Below are positions 34,738 to 36,181 of a stretch of 64,000 nt of DNA, piece after piece. Positions within the stretch are counted from its first letter, which is position 1. Every line of letters begins with the position of its first letter. Origin of the DNA: Rosistilla carotiformis. GTDB taxonomy: Bacteria; Planctomycetota; Planctomycetia; Pirellulales; Pirellulaceae. The stretch lies in contig NZ_CP036348.1 in NCBI RefSeq assembly GCF_007753095.1, forward strand, positions 7,293,411 through 7,357,410. Reading direction: 5' to 3'. The notes under the pieces were generated by a model, which was not told the origin of the DNA, did no database searches, and saw nothing but the letters and a program-made list of their open reading frames with translations. A program made the position numbers and the translations under genes.

Positions 34738-34766
34738 TTGCCAGCGGAAACCGAAAAAGCTATGCT
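34738..34766 (+). promoter_or_regulatory. Promoter of tRNA-Arg, overlapping the integrase 3' end
   Basis: TTGCCA (34738-34743) and TATGCT (34761-34766) are separated by exactly 17 bases, and the tRNA begins 13 bases after the -10 box. The -10 box overlaps the antisense stop codon of the integrase frame (34760-34762). Confidence 0.7.
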
Positions 34767-36181
34767 TCACCGCAGCAGCGCACCCCTAGCTCAATTGGAT
34801 AGAGCATCGGTCTACGGAACCGAAGGTTAGTGGTTCGAATCCACTGGGGTGTATAAATGCCCACTCCTGACGTGTCTTGAAACGTCTCGGGTGGGTTTTT
34901 TATTGGCTTTTTGCCATCGTGCCCCCTCGGGACACTTCCTGACCCGGCAGAGTTGTTACCACCGGCGTTACCACGGCGCGGGGGTCGATTCGCTTCATTT
35001 GTGCCGGGTTCTTCCGGTGTTTTCACCGCTTCGGCAAAGTCGGCTTCGGTCGTTTGCAGGTAGTGCGTTTCAGCAACCGCCCCCGAGTGCCCGAACCAGT
35101 CGTTCAGGACGTGGTTTGCATGGCGGCCCGATCGTTCCAATTCCGTCCGGCGGCTTGCTCTCAATGCCATGAAGGGCTTCGGGAACCGCGCGACGCCCGC
35201 AATATCCATGATCTTGTGAAACGTGGTCCGCAGGTTGCATTCAGCCGATCGATAGCGGGTGATCACGTAGGCATCAGCAGGGCAATTCAATCCAGGTCCA
35301 GCTATTGCAAACAACGTGTTCAATTCGGCGGCCAACTCAGGCCACAGAGGCACGATTCGTTCCCCCTTGCCGTATCGCTCCGTCTTGGGAGCCGTCACCT
35401 TGAACCGGCCTCGGTCCCACTGGATGTCCGACCATCGCAGCCGTAGCACTTCGGAAGGACAACGCAGGCCGCCCCAGCGGCCAAGGGCGTACAGAGTCCG
35501 CCATTGTTGATCGGGGCAAGCTTCCAGCAGCGCCGCAGCCATTGCCGCATCGATGAAGCGGTTCTTGCTTGTGTCGCTTCTCAGATCAACCTTGATGCCA
35601 TCCAGCGGGTTCCGTTCGATCAGACGATCGTTCATCGCTTGCCGCATCATCTGGCGACAACGTTTGACGTGTTGCCCGGCGGTGTTAGGGGACAACGCTT
35701 TGCCGTTTGGCTTGTCGCCGTTTTTGGTCGTGTCCATCATCCATCGGTGCCAACGCTGACAATCGCCAAGCGACAGCAGCCGAAGCGGTCGATCGTCGCC
35801 GATGTATTCTTCCAGCAGATCAACAGACCGTTGATAGTTCTCGGGTTTCTTCCAATCGGTGCGGCTCTCGATGTAGGCACGCATGAACGCGAGAACCGTT
35901 TTCGGGGACGTGTTGCCGTTCTCATCGTCGACCAGCCCCAGCGTAAACAATCGCTTGGACAATCGCGGGTCCTCCAACGCATTCACCCAAGCCACGGTCT
36001 TGGGATCAGCACCGGCGCTTAATTGCGTGGCGCGGATCAGTTCTTCAACATGGCGAAACGTATCGTTAGCCGATCGCTTGGAGCACTTACCCAGCCACAG
36101 CACGCGCGGCCGGTCGTTGCAGTCACGAAACCGAATCTTCCAGCCGGGCCGATCGCCGCGCTGTTCATGCAAAGAAGCCAT
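34760..36181 (-). CDS. Tyrosine integrase of the tRNA-Arg island
   Basis: The 473-residue site-specific recombinase should insert and excise the island. Start: ATG at 36179-36181 with GGGAG ten bases upstream. An N-terminal arm/SAM-like part precedes the catalytic domain. Box I Arg is in WGGLRCPSEVLRLRW, box II reads FMALRASRRTEL (the usual His of HxxR is Met here), then WFGHSG and the nucleophile Tyr in ETHYLQT. After a Gly/Asn/Ser/Pro-rich linker the frame runs through a terminator hairpin, the attachment core and the whole tRNA antisense strand (IYTPQWIRTTNLRFRRPML), ending in chromosomal DNA. The last residues thus depend on the insertion state and are probably not functional. Confidence 0.93.
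   Translation of the reverse strand: MASLHEQRGDRPGWKIRFRDCNDRPRVLWLGKCSKRSANDTFRHVEELIRATQLSAGADPKTVAWVNALEDPRLSKRLFTLGLVDDENGNTSPKTVLAFMRAYIESRTDWKKPENYQRSVDLLEEYIGDDRPLRLLSLGDCQRWHRWMMDTTKNGDKPNGKALSPNTAGQHVKRCRQMMRQAMNDRLIERNPLDGIKVDLRSDTSKNRFIDAAMAAALLEACPDQQWRTLYALGRWGGLRCPSEVLRLRWSDIQWDRGRFKVTAPKTERYGKGERIVPLWPELAAELNTLFAIAGPGLNCPADAYVITRYRSAECNLRTTFHKIMDIAGVARFPKPFMALRASRRTELERSGRHANHVLNDWFGHSGAVAETHYLQTTEADFAEAVKTPEEPGTNEANRPPRRGNAGGNNSAGSGSVPRGHDGKKPIKNPPETFQDTSGVGIYTPQWIRTTNLRFRRPMLYPIELGVRCCGEA
34780..34853 (+). tRNA. tRNA-Arg (anticodon ACG)
   Basis: All arms fold: acceptor GCACCCC with GGGGTGT, D arm GCTC/GAGC, anticodon stem TCGGT/ACCGA with loop CTACGGA (anticodon ACG, reading CGN after inosine formation), and T arm AGTGG/CCACT with loop TTCGAAT. 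A73 is the discriminator. CCA is not encoded. The 3' 44 bases are duplicated at 55852-55895, showing that this tRNA is the integration target of the island. Its 3' half is therefore the copy carried in by the element. Confidence 0.97.
34810..34853 (+). repeat. attL core (3' half of tRNA-Arg)
   Basis: This 44-bp segment starts in the anticodon stem and ends at the discriminator base. It matches 55852-55895 except at 34837 (G here, A at 55879), a T-loop position. The left copy completes a functional tRNA, as expected for integration at a tRNA 3' end. Confidence 0.93.
34860..34904 (+). terminator. Intrinsic terminator just behind tRNA-Arg
   Basis: A CCCAC/GTGGG outer stem and a GACGT/ACGTC inner stem (34860-34895) are followed by six T residues and TATT. 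It starts seven bases after the tRNA and so ends its transcript. It lies inside the island and inside the 3' coding part of the integrase, read from the opposite strand. Confidence 0.85.

Follow-up and report, generated by a model that had tools for sequence, protein, structure and literature searches.

We propose that a family of planctomycete tyrosine integrases carries its own attachment site (attP) within the 3′ part of the integrase gene, and that integration splits the gene and severs a C-terminal hairpin from it. The copy in the 64,000-nucleotide stretch of Rosistilla carotiformis DNA analyzed here (the window) would be the severed form, left without its attR half. We put the probability of this reading at roughly 0.86. 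It derives from hairpins that lie in the integrase frame at attR, from naturally fused ORFs, and from repeats that flank the att core within coding sequence. Hairpin here denotes the end of the protein, and hairpins of the nucleic acid are called stem-loops. The run-on frame, the core repeats, the in-frame hairpin at attR, and the fused ORFs can be read directly in the DNA. The exchange of the C-terminus, by analogy with a known phage, would alter the activity of the integrase and might serve as a directionality switch.

In the window, part of a genome of one 7.4-Mb contig, the integrase ORF (36241..34760, minus strand) meets no stop in the stem-loop at 34859-34896, in the repeat, or in the tRNA, and ends at TAG 34762-34760 (Table 1). 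The claim of an earlier note on this DNA, that the frame crosses the terminator of the tRNA, the attachment core, and the entire tRNA, is thus borne out; its final ~31 codons lie on the strand opposite to tRNA-Arg and the 5′ flank of that gene. The note also had the integrase end at the −10 box of the tRNA. The stop does overlap TATGCT (34761-34766), the second hexamer of the one promoter-like match in 34600-35000, and the promoter itself is a consensus match only. The protein scores above the Pfam cut-off for PF13102 and just below it for PF00589 (above it in the L084 relative), and has the lambda-type SAM-like core-binding and catalytic domains of a tyrosine recombinase. Its N-terminal, SAM-like, and catalytic parts all lie within the one ORF at attL. 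The att core is placed at 34832..34853 by analogy with the relatives described below. The arm-like repeat, whose exact pattern has a single copy in the genome, lies ~100 bp from this core, the same spacing as in relatives. A single locus does not tell whether the run-through exceeds chance, which was judged on the family instead.

Table 1. Coordinates of the features discussed, as positions in the window.
Feature	Position	Strand	Basis
Tyrosine integrase gene, severed (integrated-state) form, 493 aa	34760..36241	-	ORF and Pfam
tRNA-Arg(acg), integration target	34780..34853	+	
Stem-loop plus T-run downstream of the tRNA; the integrase frame crosses it antisense	34859..34896	+	Fold
Promoter-like hexamers TTGCCA-17-TATGCT upstream of the tRNA	34738..34766	+	Consensus match only
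Predicted att core, ~20 bp, tRNA 3′ end to T loop	34832..34853	.	Analogy with core repeats of 32 relatives
Left-hand 44-bp tRNA repeat; 43/44 positions match 55852-55895	34810..34853	.	
Left arm-like direct repeat GTGGTAAC-N4-GTGGTAAC, within the integrase coding sequence	34955..34974	-	
Element backbone: genes for TubC_N protein, AAA_25 ATPase, Prim-Pol primase, HTH_17 protein	36854..39621	-	
Two direct repeats of TCGACCCACTAAT, 12-bp period, beside the right-hand fragment	55717..55741	.	9-mers repeated within the right side
Proposed circular stop TAA 55780-55778 and stem-loop 55791-55815	55778..55815	-	
Right-hand tRNA-Arg fragment, 44 bp, reaching the anticodon loop	55852..55895	+	

A protein search of 196 related genomes with the window integrase gave matches in 182; the relatives that carry names are Rhodopirellula europaea and other planctomycetes. 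We read 91 loci: the window, 10 further loci, and 80 stretches taken from the better-scoring of the matches listed, which makes the set one of better-scoring matches and not a random sample. A tRNA lies on the opposite strand within 700 nt of the integrase stop in 78 of them; 12 have no antisense tRNA, and one has no stop within the stretch. The 78 tRNAs belong to 21 species as called by ARAGORN. The integrase stops inside the tRNA in 64 of these loci and beyond it in 11, the window among them (together 75/78). The earlier note had named a conserved stop before the att core in homologues as the observation that would refute it; no such stop was found, only 3/78 loci ending before the tRNA.

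Could the run into the tRNA be an artefact, a matter of antisense tRNA frames being often open and the tail being unselected junk? All three antisense T-arm frames are used by different members (GLEP, DSN, and IRT types), as would be expected of such a tail, and the host-derived residues after the core are few and vary with the tRNA; these last residues are themselves probably junk. The stretch before the tRNA argues otherwise. Over the 49-84 codons from the catalytic tyrosine to the tRNA, 73 of 76 loci keep the integrase frame free of stops, vs. 6 and 8 for the other two frames (the remaining two of the 78 were dropped, the tyrosine motif search having missed them), and at the far end of the element that frame goes on into a conserved hairpin. 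We therefore regard the artefact as highly improbable, and, as far as the sequences read allow, the run-through is a family trait beyond chance. A spurious antisense-tRNA ORF, a class which we take to be of the AntiFam type, was likewise considered and set aside: the ORF belongs to a conserved integrase, of which it forms the 3′ end.

The hairpin emerged from virtual excision. At 32 loci, a search of the DNA alone turned up a second, direct copy of the tRNA 3′ end, upstream within the stretch retrieved. In the 31 relatives listed with an attR, the T arm is where these repeats end, at 13-26 nt into the tRNA. The family core comprises ~20 bp at the 3′ end of the tRNA; in 29 of the 31, the integrase frame reads on past it before stopping, which contradicts the reading that most relatives stop inside the core and do not switch. 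When the core copies were joined, the integrase extended in frame by 49-109 residues in 27 of the 32 loci and ended in a common motif of the type ELLxxWxxLxxxxRxxLLAxxRGL (majority consensus xxxELxxxWxxLxxxxRxxLLAxxRxxx); the five loci without such an extension (L084, L111, L103, L089, and L065) were dropped. The sequence coding for this end sits just inside attR.

A 28-position profile of the motif found it beside a core copy in 35 of the 78 loci, in 33 of them in the integrase frame and open. Since 27 of the tested loci were rows of the profile, the search was repeated with each locus left out in turn. It then matched 30 of the 78 loci (E ≤ 0.001); in one of them (L072) the match is on the strand opposite to the integrase, in the other 29 on the same strand. 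Each of these 29 hairpins adjoins a core copy, and 27 share the integrase frame. Of the two that do not, one belongs to L043, a close relative in which core and frame have decayed, and the other to the first integrase of L084. No leave-one-out match was found in 48/78 loci, where often the stretch or contig ends first, and some may lack the hairpin. Stops within the integrase match occur in 4 of the 33 in-frame loci (L040, L045, L059, and L061), all in the first 23 codons, just upstream of a Met. The close relative G077, whose integrase is 59% identical and which uses the same tRNA-Arg, has the hairpin in frame ~23 kb away. Differences by codon position in the extension number 2946/2331/3610 over 146 very divergent pairs, a modest excess at position 3. 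Searched by itself, the hairpin has no convincing Pfam or PDB relative; in a scan of the phylum it matched 17/199 genomes at E ≤ 1e-4. At L061 (10985-13779), three consecutive profile matches lie near one attR, perhaps traces of repeated insertion.

In the integrated state the hairpin ORF is physically separate from the integrase, and might be taken for a small gene of its own adjoining attR, such as an excisionase or a regulator. It is hardly credible that a separate gene would share the integrase frame through the core in 27 of 29 cases, or that ORFs would exist in nature with the catalytic part, the core, and the hairpin in a single frame. These fused ORFs were sought with a 186-position profile spanning the catalytic end, tail, core, and hairpin, one row of which was the G101 protein itself. 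It matches 253 of 296 related genomes; part of the profile is catalytic sequence, and matching it is not in itself evidence of a split gene. Among the 151 rows listed, 41 matches end before position 119, 81 at 119-132, 21 at 133-179, and 8 at 180 or later, and positions 119-132 would be the place of the core. The eight matches that end at 180 or later are free of stops in G101, G108, G170, G034, G126, and G092, and contain a stop in G463 and G412. All of them except G412 have a hairpin match with a core-like peptide (e.g., TPTGLE) upstream in the same ORF.

The best fused ORF is that of G101 (L084:10586-12157; 524 aa), the only one in which an integrase match persists along most of the ORF. 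It follows another copy, at tRNA-Glu, at a distance of ~10 kb, which suggests tandem elements: the distal integrase would read into the hairpin of the proximal element, the junction restoring a full-length gene. The fused G101 protein found no match among plasmid records, and the window integrase none among phage records. A search with the fused protein gave two weak Thermus phage matches only, and three viral contigs matched at 37-44% identity; these contigs yielded no tRNA call and no hairpin match.

The coding sequence around the core also appears to hold recombination sites. When 200 bp before the core were compared with 180 bp after it in the 27 virtual attPs given, direct overlapping 9-mers across the core numbered 156, vs. 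6.5 ± 3.5 in codon shuffles (0/200 reached 156). L045, L059, and L061 contributed nothing to this count, as their virtual gene is cut short. Inverted repeats were slightly above the control (12 vs. 5.1; 7/200 shuffles reached 12). In the eight loci listed, most of the words common to both sides lie ~100-140 bp before and 40-65 bp after the core, in several loci as pairs ~12 bp apart. The direct repeats may well be arm-type sites inside coding sequence.

Structure prediction suggests where in the protein such sites fall. The AlphaFold2 model of the natural fused G101 protein (mean pLDDT 81.9) has an N-terminal beta-beta-helix (residues 11-51) that might bind the arm sites, followed by the SAM-like and catalytic domains. 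A linker at 376-457 is modeled at pLDDT <50, and then come helices 463-474 and 477-496, with block means of 82, 94, 94, and 66 at the very end. The C-terminal extension is accordingly predicted to be a disordered linker and a two-helix hairpin. In a fold search with the fused model of L084, XerA, the Tn1549 integrase, and lambda Int were found at E 1e-8 or less. As the core and the repeats lie in the stretch coding for the linker, the gene may tolerate an attP there.

In our reading of attP embedded in the gene, the order of sites would be arm-like repeats, the tRNA-derived core, and arm-like repeats again, all in the linker-coding stretch before the C-terminal hairpin. In the circle, the integrase gene would be whole. 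Upon integration into the tRNA 3′ end, the catalytic part would stay at attL, its last few residues supplied by the antisense strand of the host tRNA, and the hairpin-coding end would be left at attR, separated from its gene. In the most likely scenario, integration is the work of the full-length integrase, and severing leaves an enzyme of weaker or changed activity, as reported for phage Mx8; a second, tandem insertion would regenerate the full-length gene.

Accessory proteins are usually credited with giving site-specific recombination its direction. In this family, the enzyme's own linker would contain the recombination site, and the product of the reaction would thus be a different enzyme. 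A further step, possible and put forward only tentatively, is that the hairpin is a built-in directionality factor: full-length integrase, made from the circle only, would drive attP × attB, integrating would remove the hairpin and lock the element in, and a tandem insertion, or perhaps a superinfecting relative, would restore a full-length gene where the two elements meet and reopen excision. With dozens of planctomycete loci at hand, the principle can be put to the test, and among these bacteria it seems to be common. It would account for integrases whose last residues look like annotation errors made on the antisense strand of a tRNA. The core peptide, followed by the hairpin at attR, also offers a sequence signature by which the ends of elements can be found.

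The earlier note had proposed a circular form for the window element itself. The C-terminus was to depend on the state of the element, with excision between 34810-34853 and 55852-55895 yielding a 24-residue tail (QSEL...FFCT) with its own stop and terminator. The two repeats exist as it described, and 43 of their 44 bases are equal. The virtual join is open over 501 aa, ending QSELSFRVPDTHQNPVFYGVFFCT with a stop at 55778-55780, the stem-loop at 55791-55815 is present, and the right repeat holds a core of the family type with one mismatch. That sole mismatch (34837 G / 55879 A) lies in the T loop. With a crossover on the side of it nearer the tRNA 3′ end, the integrase frame acquires a TGA; a circle would therefore encode 468 or 501 aa, depending on the side. 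Moreover, in the direction of the integrase the stem-loop precedes the TAA, hence a terminator there would leave the mRNA without a stop codon, and the notion of a circle with its own stop and terminator fails in this respect.

At 44 bp, the right-hand fragment is about twice the length of the family cores, and a crossover at the anticodon loop, to which it reaches, was rejected for the family, the repeats of the 31 relatives ending 13-26 nt into the tRNA, in the T arm. Beside it are other repeats, those of TCGACCCACTAAT, which are unlike the left arm of the integrase; in a comparison within the window, no 8-mer was common to the right side and the left arm region. The tail has no conserved hairpin, and a profile search of the window did not find one (best E 0.38). 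The best match in the genome (E 0.0028) is unlikely to be a true hairpin, as it falls inside a 2023-codon frame that is also present in G002; the only placeable hairpin in the genome belongs to a tRNA-Leu element. Being too long and having other flanking repeats, the fragment probably was made by another integrase or belongs to another element, and the 24-residue tail is probably not native. Excision between the two repeats is thus unlikely as the route of this element. In sum, the earlier idea was right in principle and understated: that the C-terminus differs with element state is strongly supported for the family, in which a conserved hairpin is cut off, and the local details, the window-specific tail among them, are probably wrong. 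Near the right end of the island, a short tandem repeat (GTGCATCCG units) can be seen by eye at 55538-55592.

Among known systems, the Myxococcus phage Mx8, which integrates at a tRNA, resembles the family in having the att core inside the integrase gene and in swapping its C-terminus on integration. Its integrase (AF396866; L178:5085-6806) contains the T-arm antisense peptide STGLEP in its tail, like the planctomycete integrases, and ~112 residues follow. One paper names Mx8 as one of very few elements whose att sites lie within the integrase gene, and describes its integration as replacing 112 residues by 13, the modified enzyme being less active (PMC4701971). The family shares with Mx8 a core inside the integrase frame (in the window, on the attL side), a gene that is whole in the circle, and a C-terminus replaced on integration, these last two at the level of the family, the window being without its attR half. 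It differs in losing 49-109 residues with a conserved hairpin, and in its use of 21 tRNA species. Homology of the replaced parts was not found: the hairpin profile has no match in the Mx8 tail (best domain 3.6 bits, residues 146-155), and the family profile matches Mx8 at residues 94-192 only. The family thus works like Mx8, and the planctomycete version is separate from it and of larger scale.

The "suicidal" integrases of archaea (SSV1, pTN3, and pT26-2) also have attP inside the integrase gene, which integration partitions. The parts of a 2021 review that bear on them describe a split separating the N-terminal part from the part with the catalytic domain, truncated forms that are inactive in vitro, and self-disrupting integrases as exclusively archaeal (PMC8371274). 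The planctomycete integrases, in contrast, keep the N-terminal, SAM-like, and catalytic parts together in one attL ORF and lose only the C-terminal hairpin, and do not belong to this SSV-type class. If the hairpin is indeed a directionality factor, they would form a bacterial class of self-severing integrases, against the archaea-only limit stated in those parts of the review (PMC8371274).

Other precedents are more distant. The streptococcal ICEs in rumA are reported to swap the 3′ part of their integrase gene for that of the target gene when they integrate (PMC4701971). These elements differ from the family in using a serine recombinase and a protein-coding target. In the integration-dependent immunity of mycobacteriophages, attP lies inside the repressor gene, and the altered gene is that of the repressor, not of the integrase. 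The principle there is that a gene product comes to depend on integration through where the attachment site lies (PMC4557955). The Islander authors, in the relevant portion of their text, allowed for integrases extending across attP, naming Mx8 and SSV (PMC4383910). In the open-licence papers searched, no description of the planctomycete arrangement was found.

Returning to the window, the element has its left repeat and is without a right arm and hairpin, consistent with a severed form that lost its attR half and now probably shares the island with the tRNA fragment of another element. Of its backbone, the HTH_17 protein may be excisionase-like, and AAA_25 (L113) and TubC_N (L060) are also present in the elements of relatives. 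The backbone ends near 39.6 kb and is followed, just behind the HTH_17 gene, by a second tyrosine recombinase (39869-40642, plus strand) with a catalytic domain and without an N-terminal part; it may mark the place where the original attR end was replaced.

The same tRNA is found in different states in neighboring genomes. In G001, of the same genus, only a 422-bp 3′ remnant of the integrase (L050) remains beside it, and in G002 the identical 74-bp tRNA has no integrase of the window's kind behind it. At L050, similarity to the right flank of the window (from 55958 onward) is found again within ~5 kb (67-78% identity) and also from ~13.6 kb (93%). The genome of the window has a second family member, at tRNA-Leu(taa) (G000:C1, ~864251-883760), with an exact 23-bp core ~19.4 kb apart and the motif in frame; its hairpin has a weak profile score (E 0.12). 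Within the window itself, a 1117-aa ORF at 42086-45439 (minus strand) combines a Ser/Thr protein kinase domain with FGE-sulfatase-like domains (two stretches), and a sigma-70-like ORF lies near it at 41190-41786.
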